NCBI GenBank assembly: GCA_024278755.1
Contig: JAJRSO010000067.1
Location: forward strand, 1-64,000
Reading direction: 5' to 3'
DNA from: Calditrichota bacterium
Lineage (GTDB): Bacteria > Calditrichota > Calditrichia > Calditrichales > Calditrichaceae
DNA length: 64,000 nucleotides
Part shown: positions 33,982 to 58,046 of the stretch, in pieces
How the letters are laid out: each line of letters opens with the position of its first letter
Position numbering within the stretch: position 1 is the stretch's first letter
Program-made: the position numbers and the translations under genes
The notes under the pieces: model-generated
What the model was told of the DNA's origin: nothing
Databases searched by the model: none
Seen by the model: the letters and a program-made list of their open reading frames with translations, nothing else

Positions 33982-35202
33982 ATGGCCAATTATATTGTGC
34001 TCGGCGCGCAGTGGGGCGACGAAGGCAAGGGTAAAATTGTAGATATGCTCGCCGGAAAAATGGACCTGGTGGTGCGTTTTCAGGGCGGCGCCAATGCCGG
34101 CCACACGGTGCGAATCGGGGATAAGGAATATGTGCTGCATCTGATTCCCGGCGGCATTGTGTCCGGAACTTCGGTAAATGTGATTGGCAACGGCTGCGTG
34201 GTGGACCCGGTCACTTTTGCCAATGAACTGGATTATCTGGCGGACAAAGGGATTACGGTTACGCCGCAAAAACTGATTGTTTCGTCCCAGGCGCATATGG
34301 TCACCCCGGTGCATAAATACCTCGACAATGTACTGCATAAAAAAATCGGCACCACCGGCCGCGGCATCGGCCCGGCTTACGCCGACAAAATTCACCGCAC
34401 GGGCATCCGGATGTAATCCATTCTGGACGGCAGCATTGTGGAACGTTTCGAAGAGCACCTGCTCAATTACAAACACATCAGCGAGCAAATTTACAACGAA
34501 CCCTTTCCCGATGTGAAAGCCACCATCCGCGAAGTGAAGCAGTCGCTGGACAAAATCAAACCCTTTATAAAAGATTCGGTGGAAGTGATTGCCGGTTTTG
34601 TGGATAAAGAGGCGAACGTTTTATTCGAAGGCGCGCAGGGCACTTTTTTGGATGTGGACCACGGCAGCTATCCCTTTGTGACCTCTTCGTCCACGTCCAT
34701 CGGCGGCGCCTTTACCGGCGGCGGGGTGTTTGTGGAATTTGACAAGCGCATCGGCATCGTAAAAGCCTACACCACCCGCGTGGGCGAAGGGCCTTTCCCC
34801 ACGGAACTGTTTGACGATACCGGAAAACAATTGCAGAAAAACGGCAACGAGTTCGGTGCCACCACCGGCCGTCCGCGGCGCTGCGGCTGGCTGGATTTAA
34901 AAATGCTTAAACGCTCGTTTGTGATTAACGGATTCAATTATGTGTCTTTGAGCAAGATAAGCTGCCTGTCCGGATTCGAAACCGTTAAAGCGGCGGTGGA
35001 TTACGACGCCGAGGGCAAACCCGTTTATAAGGAATTCTCCGGCTGGTCCGAAGAAGTGGAAGGCGCCACTTCTTTAGAGCAGTTGCCGAAGAATTGTAAA
35101 AATTACATTAATTTTATTGAAGACTATCTCGGTGTGCCCATAGGAATGATTTCCACCGGCCCGCACCGGAAGGATATTATTTTTAAGGATGATTTGTTCT
35201 AA
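33982..35202 (+). CDS. purA: Adenylosuccinate synthetase with an in-frame TAA codon
   Basis: Joins IMP and aspartate with GTP to make adenylosuccinate. N-terminal P-loop GAQWGDEGKGKIVDML; GTTGRGIGPAYADK; C-terminal VEFDKRIGIVKAYTTRVGEGPFPTE, here as AYTTRVGEGPFPTE, and TTGRPRRCGWLD. Codon 145 (34414-34416) is TAA in the sequence GIRM-stop-SILDGS; the frame then continues without break to 35202, giving the normal length of about 406 residues. By context Gln (CAA) is the likely original codon. As purA is the only route to AMP here, an error in the base sequence or readthrough is more likely than a dead gene. Confidence 0.9.
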
Positions 35203-35664
35203 TTCCCCCTTATCAAAGGGGGCGCGCCGGCAGGCGGATGCGTCTACCGACGCAGACTAAAGGGGGTTGTTTTATGAAAGTATATTACAATCCTGAACTA
35301 AAACAAAAGGCAAGAAATTTAAGAAACAACGCCACCTTTTCAGAGCGGGTTTTATGGAAATACTTAAAATCGGGTCAAATGAAAGGGTATAAATTTACGC
35401 GACAGAAACCTATAGGAAACTACATTGTCGATTTTTATTGCCCGAAGTTACAATTAATTATTGAAGTTGACGGTGACAGTCATAACGAAAAACAAGCATA
35501 CGATAGGAAACGGCAAAAAGAATTAGAGAGCGAAGGATTTAAGTTTTTACGTTTTGATGGATATTCAGTGATAAAACAAACGGATTCGGTACTATCGGTA
35601 ATAGTAGATAAAATAGAAGAAATAGAGAAGACAACCCCCTCCCCCCCCCTTTATTAAGGGGGGA
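35203..35664. mobile_element. DUF559 element with inverted hairpin ends (intact copy)
   Basis: Left end: ttcccccttatcaaaggggg (35203-35222), an inserted stem-loop (tgcgtc-tacc-gacgca, within 35223-35257), then taaagggggttgt (35258-35270). The DUF559 start codon follows three bases later. The right end (35631-35664) is the reverse complement: acaacccccct-type C-run, then ttattaaggggggat. The endonuclease gene thus fills the space between two inverted hairpin repeats. Same ends recur at ten other sites between 35.8 and 58 kb. Confidence 0.75.
35274..35657 (+). CDS. DUF559 endonuclease-domain protein
   Basis: 127 residues. The N-terminal segment YNPELKQKARNLRNNATFSE, then VLWKYLKS and GYKFTRQKPIG, and the nuclease core GNYIVDFYCPKLQLIIEVDG are characteristic of DUF559 (PF04480), a PD-(D/E)xK/Vsr-like fold. 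Visible catalytic candidates are Asp in VDFYC and Glu/Asp in IEVDG. Start at 35274, directly after the left hairpin end; the stop overlaps the right end. Family members are often solitary and of unknown role. The remnants at 40.2, 41.5 and 41.8 kb derive from a near-identical gene. Confidence 0.88.
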   Translation: MKVYYNPELKQKARNLRNNATFSERVLWKYLKSGQMKGYKFTRQKPIGNYIVDFYCPKLQLIIEVDGDSHNEKQAYDRKRQKELESEGFKFLRFDGYSVIKQTDSVLSVIVDKIEEIEKTTPSPPLY

Positions 35665-36029
35665 TGGATGAAAGTATCCGGGGGAAGTGAGGTGCTTAAG
35701 TGAAAGAGATTCCTCTTCTCGTTGACACGGTATTCGGAAGAAGGTTTGGGTTGGAAGAAAAGAAAAATACGCCAACATAAATTATTTTTTCGAAAACGGG
35801 ATTTTCGCTTCGCTACAACCAACTTGGTTGGGAATCCAGAAAGATTATCCACTGGATTCCCGTTTTTACGGAAAGGACGGCGGACCGTTTCCCCCTTATC
35901 AAAGAGGGACTAAGGGGGTTGTATAGAGACTTGAATAACAACCCTGTGATTCCTTTTATTATGGGAACGGTTGCGCGGACAAGGGCTCTTTGCCCTGGAT
36001 ACCGCTTGCGGGACAGAAAGATAATGTAA
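35665..36029. repeat. Repeat-filled gap between DUF559 element and purM
   Basis: Contains gggaatccag / ctggattccc inverted partners (about 35829-35860) and a solo copy of the hairpin end at 35889-35922 (ttcccccttatcaaagaggg ... gggggttgt). No gene seen. Confidence 0.6.
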
Positions 36030-40182: not shown

Positions 40183-40371
40183 TTCCCCCTTAGCAAAGGG
40201 GGATAAAGGGGGTTGTTTGAAAGTACACTACAATCCTGAGCTAAAACAAAAATGTTGTAAAATAGAAAAAACGATTTTTTTGGTAATAGCAGAGAAAATA
40301 GAAGAATTAGAGAAGAAAACCCCTGTTAGCATCCCGATTTATCGGGGCTAACCCCCTTTTCTAAGGGGGAA
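40183..40371. mobile_element. Internally deleted DUF559 element, copy 1
   Basis: Left hairpin end ttccccct..gggggttgt, then an N-terminal remnant (KVHYNPELKQK) joined to the C-terminal end of the gene (VIAEKIEELEKK), then a right end split by a 28-base insert containing cccgatttatcggg. Almost all the nuclease core is gone, so this is a non-autonomous derivative. Confidence 0.75.
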
Positions 40372-40454
40372 TAGATGTTAGCATTACAGAAACTCGAGGC
40401 ACTATCGTCATTCCTTTTCCGCTAACGCGGAAATTCGGAATGACGACGGACCGT

Positions 40455-40488
40455 TTCCCCCTTAGCAAAGGGGGATAAAGGGGGTTGT
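40455..40488 (+). repeat. Solo hairpin end
   Basis: ttcccccttagcaaaggggg followed by ataaagggggttgt, with no inverted partner nearby. It is preceded by the ttccgctaacgcggaa palindrome unit (about 40416-40446), which also precedes the copies at 41509 and 41819. Confidence 0.7.
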
Positions 40489-40572
40489 TGTTAAGGGCGA
40501 AACAATCTGGGTTAAAACAAACGAAAAAGGTTTTATCGGCAATTGGCTCTTGGAAATAAACAAAGGAAGTAA

Positions 40573-41388
40573 ATGAAAAAAATAAAATCACTCATACTTA
40601 CCGGCTACGGCATCAACTGCGAAGAAGAAATGGCCGCGGCTTATGAGCTGGCCGGGGCGGATGCGCGTATTGTTCATTTAAGCGATATTTTCGCCGACCG
40701 GATTGCCATTCACGATTATCAAATCCTTAATTTCCCGGGCGGATTTTCTTTTGGCGACGATTTGGGTTCGGCCAAGGTGCTGGGCAATAAATTCAAATTC
40801 AAGCCAATGGCTTCCGGCAAACGTTTTATGGACGAGCTGCAACAATTCCTTTCTGACGGCAAATATATTCTGGGTGTGTGCAACGGCTTTCAGGCGCTGG
40901 TGAAAATGGGTCTGCTACCCAACACGGGCGGCAATTCTGATCAGGAAGCTACCCTCACGCACAACGATTCCGGCAAGTTCGAAGACCGCTGGGTACGGAT
41001 ACGAGTGAATGAAAAGGCGCGGACGCCGTACCTGAACGGACTGGATTTTTTCGACGTTCCCGTACGCCACGGCGAAGGTAAATTGATTTTTAAGGACGAA
41101 GAAATCCGTACCGCAGTGCTTAAGCAAAATCTGAATTGTTTGGAATACGTCGACAAGCAAGGTGACTCCACGGCGGAATATCCGCTCAATCCCAACGGCT
41201 CGGAACTGAACTGCGCCGGACTGACCGACCCGTCCGGGCAGGTGTTTGGCCTCATGCCGCATCCGGAAGCGTATCTGTCGCTGTACAATCATCCCGACTG
41301 GGGGAAAAAGAAACGGAAAAATCCCGATATTTCGGAAGAGGGGCAGGGGCTGGCACTGTTTAAAAATATTATTGAGAAATTAAAATAA
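40573..41388 (+). CDS. purQ: FGAM synthase glutaminase subunit
   Basis: 271 residues, class I glutamine amidotransferase. It opens with LTGYGINCEEEMAAAYELAG (GxNC-type PurQ signature) and NFPGGFSFGDDLGSAKVLGN, has nucleophile Cys103 in LGVCNGFQALVKMG and catalytic His/Glu in MPHPEAYL. Supplies ammonia to PurL. It is about 40 residues longer than the Bacillus-type PurQ and fits the larger PurL used here. Confidence 0.95.
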   Translation: MKKIKSLILTGYGINCEEEMAAAYELAGADARIVHLSDIFADRIAIHDYQILNFPGGFSFGDDLGSAKVLGNKFKFKPMASGKRFMDELQQFLSDGKYILGVCNGFQALVKMGLLPNTGGNSDQEATLTHNDSGKFEDRWVRIRVNEKARTPYLNGLDFFDVPVRHGEGKLIFKDEEIRTAVLKQNLNCLEYVDKQGDSTAEYPLNPNGSELNCAGLTDPSGQVFGLMPHPEAYLSLYNHPDWGKKKRKNPDISEEGQGLALFKNIIEKLK

Positions 41389-41508
41389 CGTGTCAATGGC
41401 CAAGAGCCGATTTCCAAGAGGGTATTTTGGATTTTGGATTATAAATGTTAAATGAAAATGGGATTCCTCTTTCCGCTGACGCGGTAATTCGGAATGACGA
41501 CGGACCGT
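41389..41508. repeat. Gap downstream of purQ with palindromic repeat unit
   Basis: Contains ttccgctgacgcggtaattcggaatgacgac (in two parts), the same 40-base unit that precedes hairpin ends at 40455 and 41819 and recurs at 42089-42120. No gene seen. Confidence 0.5.
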
Positions 41509-41734
41509 TTCCCCCTTCGCAAAGGGGGATAAAGGGGGTTGTTTGAAAGTACACTACAATCCTGAGCTAAAACAAAAGGCAAGAAATTTAAGAAACAACG
41601 CCACCTTCTCAGAGCGGGTTTTATGGAAATACTTAAAATCAGGTCATATAAAAGGATATCGGTTTTAACGGTAATTATAAATAAAATTAAAGAGATGCAG
41701 GGACAACCCCCTAACCCCCTTTTCTAAGGGGGGA
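41509..41734. mobile_element. Internally deleted DUF559 element, copy 2
   Basis: Left hairpin end, 37 codons of DUF559 N-terminus (KVHYNPELKQKARNLRNN, TFSERVLWKYLKSG), a premature TAA in the deletion joint (gatatcggttttaacgg), the short 3' remnant, and the right end acaaccccctaaccccctttt. Nearly identical to copy 3, which starts 310 bases downstream. Confidence 0.8.
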
Positions 41735-41818
41735 TAGATGGTGGCATTACAGAAACTCGAGGCGCTACCGTCTTTCCTCTTTCCGCTGACGCGGAAATTC
41801 GGAATGACGACAGACCGT

Positions 41819-42042
41819 TTCCCCCTTCGCAAAGGGGGATAAAGGGGGTTGTTTGAAAGTACACTACAATCCTGAGCTAAAACAAAAGGCAAGAAATTTA
41901 AGAAACAACGCCACCTTTTCAGAGCGGGTTTTATGGAAATACTTAAAATAGGTCAAATGAAAGGATATTGGTTTTAACGGTAATTATAAATAAAATTGAA
42001 GAGTTGCAGGGACAACCCCTTAACCCCCTTTATTAAGGGGGA
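41819..42042. mobile_element. Internally deleted DUF559 element, copy 3
   Basis: Same structure and same deletion joint as copy 2, with a few base differences (one base missing in the codons around tacttaaaataggtc). The two copies plus the intervening palindromic unit form a 310-base tandem pair. Confidence 0.8.
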
Positions 42043-42179
42043 TGGATGGTGGTATCCCGGGAAGTCCGTGATTCAGTGAATAGGATTCCTCTTTCCGCTG
42101 ACGCGGAAATTCGGAATGACGGGCAAAATTGGTTGTCTAGTAATTGGAAATTGGTTCTTGGAAATTTATAGAGGTAAAA

Positions 42180-43793: not shown

Positions 43794-43803
43794 AAGAAAA
43801 CTA

Positions 43804-43902
43804 TTCCCCCTTAGAAAAGGGGGGTAGGGGGTTGTGAATTCATATGAAAGGTTTAGGATATAATTGAAAAAACACCCCCCTTTGTCCCCCCTTGATAGGG
43901 GA
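43804..43902. mobile_element. Short gene-less hairpin-ended element
   Basis: Left end ttcccccttagaaaagggggg..gggttgt (shortened here) and right end aacacccccctttgtcccccc..gataggggag enclose about 36 bases including taggatataattgaaaaaa. A very similar element lies at 53198-53297, sharing the interior aggatata..gaaaaaacaccccc. Confidence 0.65.
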
Positions 43903-43968
43903 GCGCAGTTGGGTTGTGAACCAAAATCTAAAATTCAAAATTTAAAATTGCTTAAAGGGAGGTTAGTT

Positions 43969-46713: not shown

Positions 46714-46743
46714 AAAAACAGGGGATGTTAGATTTTGGATTTT

Positions 46744-46977
46744 AAATCAATAGTGTCCGGGTTAATTTAGAAAATTTGTTCTGTTAAAGAGATTATTTTA
46801 AAAACTCTCCCCCGAGCCCCGATTTAACGGGACTCGCCCCCTCCCTTGACGCTTCAAGGGAGGGGGATGGGGGTGGGTTCCGAATCAAGTCCTGTTAATT
46901 CGTATTTCCCTTAATTTCCTGGAATTACAGAATTTCCAGACACTTGTTATTTTTTAACCGGACACTATTGATTTTAA
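46744..46977. mobile_element. MITE-like element with terminal inverted repeats
   Basis: The ends aatcaatagtgtccgg and ccggacactattgatt are inverted copies that extend to about 22 bases with one gap. They enclose 190 bases with no ORF. Inside is a C/G-rich stem-loop, ccccctcccttgacg..caagggaggggg (about 46839-46868), similar to the repeat inside the barrel gene at 21713. No transposase lies in the window. Confidence 0.65.
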
Positions 46978-47110
46978 ATGAAAGGGACAGGAATTTGTTG
47001 AATATTAGTAAAGGCCTTTAAAACATCATGATGAATTTTTACTGAATAGCCAATACGAGTAAAGCTCACAATAGCTGGTAATTCACTATGAAGGTAATTA
47101 ATTTATAGGT
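46978..47110. other. Leader of the KilA-N gene, nothing recognised
   Basis: AT-rich, no clear promoter or RNA. Together with the MITE-like element it makes a 397-base gap after purB. Confidence 0.4.
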
Positions 47111-47988: not shown

Positions 47989-48010
47989 TTTGGGCAGAGC
48001 GATAATTAAA

Positions 48011-48208
48011 TTTCCCCTTAGAAAAGGGGATTACCACAAAGGTGGTCACTTGCACGAAGGGGTTGTAAAAATTGCCGATTGCGAATGCGCTTTGTTGTTT
48101 TTAAAGACAACCCCCTTGCCGCAAGCCAGCCGGCAGGCTGATCCGCCTTATGGCGTGAACGGATTCGCCTTACCGGCGAAGGTGGAAGAAAACAGATTAA
48201 AGGGAGAA
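48011..48208. mobile_element. Hairpin-ended element with inserts in both ends
   Basis: Left end tttccccttagaaaagggga, interrupted by ttaccacaaaggtggtcact, then gaaggggttgt. The interior is 39 bases; the right end begins acaacccccttg, contains a 75-base insert with gccagccggcaggctg, and ends attaaagggagaa. The final bases form the purD ribosome site. Confidence 0.5.
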
Positions 48209-53191: not shown

Positions 53192-53197
53192 GGTCTT

Positions 53198-53297
53198 TTC
53201 CCCCTTAGTAAAGGGGGAATAAGGGGGTTGTAAAAATTTAAAGCAATATAGGATATAGAAAAAACACCCCCCTTTGTCCCCCCTTCGTAGGGGGGAA
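53198..53297. mobile_element. Short gene-less hairpin-ended element
   Basis: ttcccccttagtaaaggggg, aataagggggttgt, a 30-base interior (aggatatagaaaaa), and right end acacccccctttgtcccccc..cgtaggggggaat. Sister of the element at 43804-43902. Confidence 0.7.
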
Positions 53298-56342: not shown

Positions 56343-56432
56343 TTCCCCCTTAAAAAAGGGGGTTAGGGGGTTGTTCTTATTGAATCCAGGCAGTCAAGTT
56401 CACAACCCCTTAATCCCCTTTGCTAAGGGGAA
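56343..56432. mobile_element. Minimal 90-base hairpin-ended element
   Basis: ttcccccttaaaaaaggggg, ttagggggttgt, 28-base interior, acaaccccttaatccccttt, gctaaggggaa. The shortest and cleanest copy: two inverted ends and almost nothing between. Confidence 0.8.
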
Positions 56433-57914: not shown

Positions 57915-58046
57915 TTTCCCCCTTAGAAAAGGGCGATTAAGGGGGATGTGATTGAGTGGATACGTGTGAATTAATCGTTTCTGCCAACGAGAATACAACC
58001 CCCTACCCCCCTTTAGTATGAGGGTATAAGCGTAGCATCCAAAAGG
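57915..58046. mobile_element. Hairpin-ended element in the pyrI-pyrD gap
   Basis: Left end tttcccccttagaaaaggg..attaagggggatgt (57915-57939) and right end acaaccccctacccccctt (57995-58014), the latter followed by an insert (agtatgagggtataagcg) before aaaaggga. Interior about 45 bases. No gene. Confidence 0.6.

Follow-up and report, generated by a model that had tools for sequence, protein, structure and literature searches.

A DUF559 nuclease gene between inverted intrastrand-triplex ends: a probable member of a widely distributed class of small mobile elements

A small gene of the DUF559 family lies directly after purA in a 64,000-nucleotide stretch of DNA from a Calditrichota bacterium (assembly GCA_024278755.1, contig JAJRSO010000067.1; this whole stretch is referred to as the window), and the repeats around it raise the question of whether gene and repeats form a unit that moves. 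An earlier note had proposed that the gene is packaged between inverted hairpin ends, and this was confirmed at 35201-35664 by the open reading frame, the Pfam match and an end-motif scan. The whole element (35201..35664, plus strand; AATTCCCCC...GGGGGGAT) consists of a left end, the DUF559 gene and an inverted right end, and its left end starts at the purA stop codon (35200-35202). The left end begins with the hairpin CCCCCTT-ATCA-AAGGGGG (35205..35222, plus strand; DNA folding energy -7.4 kcal/mol, z -4.4). This is followed by a GC-rich insert of about 37 bp (35223..35260, plus strand) that is not in other copies, and then by AAAGGGGGTTGT with the block GGGGGTT (35262..35268, plus strand), which mirrors AAGGGGG; the block is assigned from its sequence as a putative third strand under a triplex code that was tested over many loci (below). 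Three bases separate AAAGGGGGTTGT from the ATG of the gene (35274..35657, plus strand), which encodes a predicted 127-residue nuclease of the PD-(D/E)XK/EDxHD type and is the sole intact copy within the window. The right end, located by the end-motif scan (35631..35663, minus strand), is a hairpin with its third strand directed into the gene, and includes the final codons (SPPLY) and the TAA stop codon. The three-base spacing of the start codon and the position of the stop codon within the right end are thus as first described; the hairpin and G-block reported for the left end are also present, but the insert between them had been missed. Ends at 40185-40216 and 41511-41542 are insert-free and serve for comparison. 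The insert would part the third strand from the left hairpin of the only intact copy. It is partly palindromic and resembles DNA near 48130. The neighboring purA (33982-35202) reads as two open reading frames of 144 and 254 residues, which suggests a frameshift, a stop or an assembly error. In the one relative compared at this point (L249) the corresponding position after purA carries no hairpin.

The window protein matched Pfam PF04480 with 127.5 bits (curated cut-off 20.6), and six residues, Glu-24, Asp-53, Glu-64, Asp-66, His-70 and Asp-77, were invariant in 27 proteins. An AlphaFold model built from 27 sequences (pLDDT 86.8) had 3hrl as its best structural match, and matched 3hrl, the endonuclease I-Bth0305I (3r3p, probability 1.00) and PvuRts1I at E values below 0.001 and Vsr more weakly. 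The protein therefore has the PD-(D/E)XK (EDxHD) nuclease fold together with conserved acidic and histidine residues. E. coli YcjD, which belongs to the DUF559 family, has been assigned to the PD-(D/E)XK superfamily (PMC1189080). The dN/dS values of ten DUF559 pairs were between 0.05 and 0.14, so that purifying selection maintains the intact copies as functional proteins. Comparison with PADLOC gave weak, partial matches.

The end-motif scan detected 16 ends in the window, forming eight pairs along with at least two single ends. One pair encloses the full gene, three enclose genes with internal deletions but with both termini retained, and four are nearly empty at about 90-110 bp, so that the recurrence of the ends, some with gene remnants, amounts to seven further pairs plus the single ends. 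The internally deleted elements, all on the plus strand, are at 40183..40371, where the start and end of DUF559 and both element ends are retained; at 41509..41733, where about 130 nucleotides of the gene start lie between triplex ends; and at 41819..42042, a near duplicate of the preceding element and its local tandem copy. The gene-less, MITE-like elements, likewise on the plus strand, are at 43802..43904 (from the end-motif scan), 53197..53297 (two inward-facing triplex ends), 56343..56432 and 57916..58028. Single ends are found at 35890..35922 (plus strand), where no partner is present, at 40455..40488 (plus strand), adjoining the element at 40183..40371, and, in decayed form, near 48009. 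Internally reduced copies with both ends kept are as one would expect if a mobile element is moved by its ends. Across the genome the general end motif gave 33 matches and the reversed pattern none; the strictest motif gave five, all on this contig. The two other DUF559 genes of the genome (L006 and L007) also have hairpin repeats on both sides, with other sequences and in direct rather than inverted order, so that what links gene and repeat is a design and not one repeat family.

Three further repeats were noted in the window. The region from 40403 to 42121 is a mosaic array in which DUF559 remnants take turns with copies of a second repeat (CATTCCTCTTTCCGCTGACGCGGAAATTCGGAATGACG); similar copies occur in relatives G001 and G013. 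At 46739-46979 a 27-bp inverted repeat of the TAGTGTCCGGGTTAA type surrounds a different triplex-like hairpin (CCCCCTCCCTTGACGCTTCAAGGGAGGGGGATGGGGGTGGG), placing a triplex motif within another MITE-like element. A 68-bp perfect direct repeat, its copies 143 bp apart, occupies positions 1-211 and ends in a tRNA-like start.

Inverted hairpins are present as originally noted, but they are not plain hairpins, because the second G-run is a mirror image of the stem, as a third strand would be. The ends fit a purine-motif intrastrand triplex made of a C-rich arm, a G-rich arm and a mirror third strand; in the flanks and the window copies we found a pyrimidine arm, a loop, a purine arm and a mirror third strand that sets G on G and A or T on A. 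The mirror score of stems against their own third strands was 0.769, compared with 0.703 for the stems of other loci (sd 0.007; 0 of 1000 permutations), and a direct, non-mirror reading scored lower, at 0.695. Opposite internal A residues, in a register fixed from the G residues alone, the third strand had T 40 times, A 17 times, C three times and G never. This covariation and these base counts correspond to the triplex code and so exclude a simple second Watson-Crick hairpin for ends of the GAGGGG/GGGGTG type, which fit mirror pairing only; for ends of the AAGGGGG type, pairing of the second G-run in an alternative Watson-Crick hairpin is possible. The covariation between stem and third strand supports selection on the predicted structure.

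Such motifs have been described before. Holder et al. (2015, PMC4666352) characterized the intrastrand triplex motifs of E. coli MG1655, earlier known as BoxC or PIT, and found that the motif forms a triplex in vitro as an isolated single strand, with no stable triplex in vivo. The DUF559 ends share the three-block design (locus L056 has CCCTCTCCC-N3-GGGAGAGGG-N3-GGGTGAGGG at both ends, which is the E. coli type) and are similarly intergenic, multi-copy and present in many bacteria. They differ in being paired, inverted and tied to a co-evolving nuclease gene, whereas Holder et al. never found mobility-providing activities around triplex sites (PMC4666352). The earlier note had proposed a nuclease/palindrome pair not attributed to a known transposon family; the pair is supported, and its ends belong to this described repeat class, which the note had missed.

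When 84,980 species genomes were searched with the window protein, 80 loci from many phyla were obtained, picked by protein similarity and not by their flanks. A repeat shared from flank to flank (score at least 18) was present at 71% of the 68 testable loci and at 0.8% of 1360 control positions obtained by shifting within the same DNA. The flanks follow a common plan: an A- or T-containing C-rich arm, a loop, a G-rich arm, two or three bases, a second G-rich block, the gene, and then the reverse complement of all of these, as in AATTCCCCTC-TTGA-GAGGGG-CTA-GGGGTG (L097) and CCCCCCTTT-GAA-AAAGGGGGG-CTA-GGGGGGATT (L145). When the loci were scanned for motifs that obey the purine-motif code, with G placed on G and either A or T on A in stems of at least six bases and at most one misfit, 38 of 71 (54%) had a triplex motif within 250 bp on both sides, against one of 852 shifted windows (0.1%) and none of the 211 other open reading frames in the same loci. 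The third strands point toward the gene at both ends in 30 of the 38. Of the 54 loci in a second set, drawn from more diverse genomes, 23 had motifs on both sides, all with gene-facing third strands; long proteins containing a DUF559 domain (L027, L061 and L069) had no flanking triplex motif in the scan of this set. In the first set, roughly 45% of loci are without a formal motif on at least one side.

The motifs also co-occur with the gene at the level of whole genomes. Among 98 genomes, a single triplex pattern recurred five or more times in 22 of 42 with DUF559 and in nine of 56 without it, an odds ratio of 5.7 (p 2e-4; Spearman 0.52), values that are uncorrected for phylogeny and assembly gaps. 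When the ends of 18 genomes were tested against one another, own-type copies were dispersed in many; several genomes also hold other end types, and the comparison is therefore not counted as a test of specificity.

End type follows the protein. The type changes 24 times along a tree built for 121 DUF559 proteins, whereas 200 shuffles gave 54 changes on average and never fewer than 46. Within the Bacteroidota alone it changes four times, compared with at least seven in 500 shuffles. A clade with GAGGGG ends unites Bacteroidota with Spirochaetota, Fidelibacterota and Chlorobiota. The tree was built from 115 columns and leaves many forks open, which makes individual joins uncertain, but taken as a whole the pattern departs widely from a random one. 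Gene and ends are inherited together, across phyla as well as within them.

The gene might nevertheless be no more than cargo lying between two triplex repeats that spread by a mechanism of their own, such as fork stalling, slippage or recombination between repeats. Holder et al. argued for replication and repair errors and proposed mutagenesis through replication trouble (PMC4666352), and many end copies occur in two genomes in which DUF559 was not detected, G004 (141 matches in an assembly 89% complete) and G063 (32 matches). Two plasmids of close Picosynechococcus strains differ by triplex-motif units of 106 bp and 33 bp that adjoin existing motifs beside a DUF559 gene, and recombination could also have produced these. 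Cargo of this kind is at odds with the agreement between end type and DUF559 type, which holds even within one phylum, with the absence of similar bracketing from the other reading frames of the same loci, with the purifying selection on the gene and with the retention of both ends by pseudogene copies. We consider this explanation unlikely, though it is the strongest of the alternatives.

Dispersal of the elements was examined by comparing relatives within the window's own family at positions defined by synteny of the pyr/pur cluster. The site at 43802 has no hairpins in G008, G009, G002 and G014. The element at 53197 is absent from G003. The element at 56343 is present in G004 and missing from L248, and that at 57916 is also present in G004 and missing from several relatives. 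Homologs without such flanks, or positions occupied in every relative, had been named as evidence against mobility; homologs are flanked far above chance, and relatives have unoccupied positions. With ends that co-evolve with the protein and copies that are dispersed, the nuclease/palindrome package behaves as a dispersed element, as had been proposed. Among the compared relatives, whose intergenic DNA is too diverged, we found no full DUF559 copy with a base-exact empty site. In G149, from another phylum-level group, there are about 17 DUF559 loci, mostly remnants, with inward-directed ends wherever the contig allows and many single ends besides. A Chloroflexota genome assembled from a metagenome has two full copies (L108 and L113) on different contigs that are 88% identical, with homology dropping near the triplex ends AAATTCCCCC...GGGGGAATTT. 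No target duplication was detected in 53 end pairs (mean longest direct match 2.9, compared with 2.7 in controls) or around the eight elements inspected individually (0 of 8).

Two other loci were considered as empty-site cases and set aside. On a plasmid of Synechocystis sp. B12 (L176) a DUF1156 gene, which plasmids of Nostoc, Planktothrix and Geminocystis have intact, is interrupted by a DUF559 gene lying between triplex-like hairpins whose tails point outward; the linker varies between species, and the boundary is therefore not base-exact. In E. coli, the one BoxC motif in the neighborhood of ycjD lies about 175 bp downstream, and the other side of the gene has none. Most strains carry ycjD in the sapF-fabI interval (L170, L179-L183), and others have an RND efflux operon and a TetR gene there instead, so that this is a case of allelic replacement rather than a clean empty site.

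The lack of target duplication would also be expected of a free-standing homing endonuclease. DUF559 would then cut bare triplex motifs, and repair from an occupied copy would convert a single motif into motif-gene-motif, the motif acting as a recognition and protection site and not as a transposon end. The EDxHD fold with its conserved residues, the homing endonuclease I-Bth0305I among the closest solved folds, and the position of the new Picosynechococcus units next to existing motifs all agree with such a role. Against it, the unoccupied positions in the pyr/pur cluster of relatives are mostly without any motif, and homing alone leaves the dispersal of ends to new sites unexplained; we regard it as improbable. 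A stationary nuclease gene with the ends as its terminators or regulators would account for their location near the start and stop, and for the stop codon within the right end, but it is very improbable and we rejected the hairpins as mere terminators, since the same ends are dispersed without the gene and earlier work cited in PMC4666352 found no promoter or terminator activity for BoxC/PIT motifs. Least probable of all, the elements could be MITEs of an ordinary DDE transposase with DUF559 as cargo, a reading prompted by the 8-bp target duplications around outer GGTAGTGTCAAAA repeats in L073 of G149 (TTAATAGA) and L015 of G022 (TTAATTGA) and holding only in these two genomes, where the DUF559 unit is nested in the larger element; the outer repeat was found neither in the window nor at any other locus inspected, and no target duplication accompanies the triplex-ended unit itself. 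The nesting in L073 and L015, in two distant groups, is of note in itself, as a DDE-type MITE perhaps carries the triplex-ended element.

The gene and its ends are associated, share an anatomy, are co-inherited and are dispersed, and we conclude that the window element probably belongs to a widely distributed family of small mobile elements, in which one DUF559 (YcjD-like) nuclease gene lies between two inverted intrastrand-triplex ends. The motif-rich genomes in which DUF559 was not found (G004 and G063), the loci with one-sided or missing motifs and the one-sided ycjD of E. coli count against this conclusion. From the fold, the conservation and the co-evolution we infer that the nuclease cuts its own ends; mobilization in trans and a replication step are parts of the same proposal. 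In single-stranded DNA, as on the lagging strand or during repair or recombination, an end would fold into a hairpin of C-arm and G-arm capped by the G-rich third strand. The nuclease would recognize its own end type and cut there, or at an unoccupied motif elsewhere. Host copying or joining would then carry the element, or whatever DNA lies between a pair of such ends, to a new site with no target duplication. An intact nuclease would also move gene-deleted copies and single ends in trans, and these would become MITE-like and BoxC-like repeats. As PD-(D/E)XK nucleases lack a DNA-joining activity of their own, a partner would be needed, with host repair or replication completing the move. A homing-like version, in which bare motifs are cut and the element is copied in, and a transposition-like version, in which the element leaves by its ends, both fit the missing target duplication.

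A close parallel is with REP sequences, their RAYT proteins and REPINs, which likewise combine short palindromes, inverted pairs, gene-less derivatives and one associated nuclease gene without target duplication. However, RAYTs are Y1 HUH tyrosine enzymes and DUF559 is a PD-(D/E)XK protein, and REPs carry GTAG/CGTC tags, whereas the DUF559 ends have as their tag a G-rich third strand, in mirror order to the stem. Membership of the REP/RAYT system was rejected, as DUF559 is the only gene of the element, with no Y1 HUH gene, and its tags are GGGGGTT, GGGGTG and GGGGGAT and not GTAG/CGTC at the hairpin foot. Elements of the IS200/IS605 type also have structured ends and make no target duplication, but the DUF559 element has neither TnpA nor TnpB. 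I-Bth0305I, an EDxHD/Vsr-like enzyme, resembles the modeled DUF559 protein in its predicted fold (3r3p) and pattern of catalytic residues; it is an intron-linked homing enzyme, whereas DUF559 stands alone between its own ends in intergenic DNA. In the literature naming DUF559 or ycjD that was accessible to us, from which most subscription papers are missing and which may thus omit a published link, we found no connection to triplex, BoxC or REP repeats. The fold and the repeat are already known; what would be new is the pairing of the nuclease with triplex ends, and the element class.

A broader reading, which we advance tentatively and hold a little less likely than its converse, is that the DUF559/YcjD proteins are structure-specific nucleases that read intrastrand-triplex ends and drive a bacteria-wide class of mobile elements, with BoxC/triplex repeats, including those of E. 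coli, as non-autonomous copies. BoxC/triplex repeats have been an orphan repeat class since the 1990s. If the reading is true, this class gains a gene, and a nuclease family still labeled a domain of unknown function gains a role. The mobile element itself would work with a PD-(D/E)XK nuclease and a triple-stranded DNA end instead of a known transposase, and the question of what spreads triplex/BoxC repeats becomes directly testable in laboratory E. coli.
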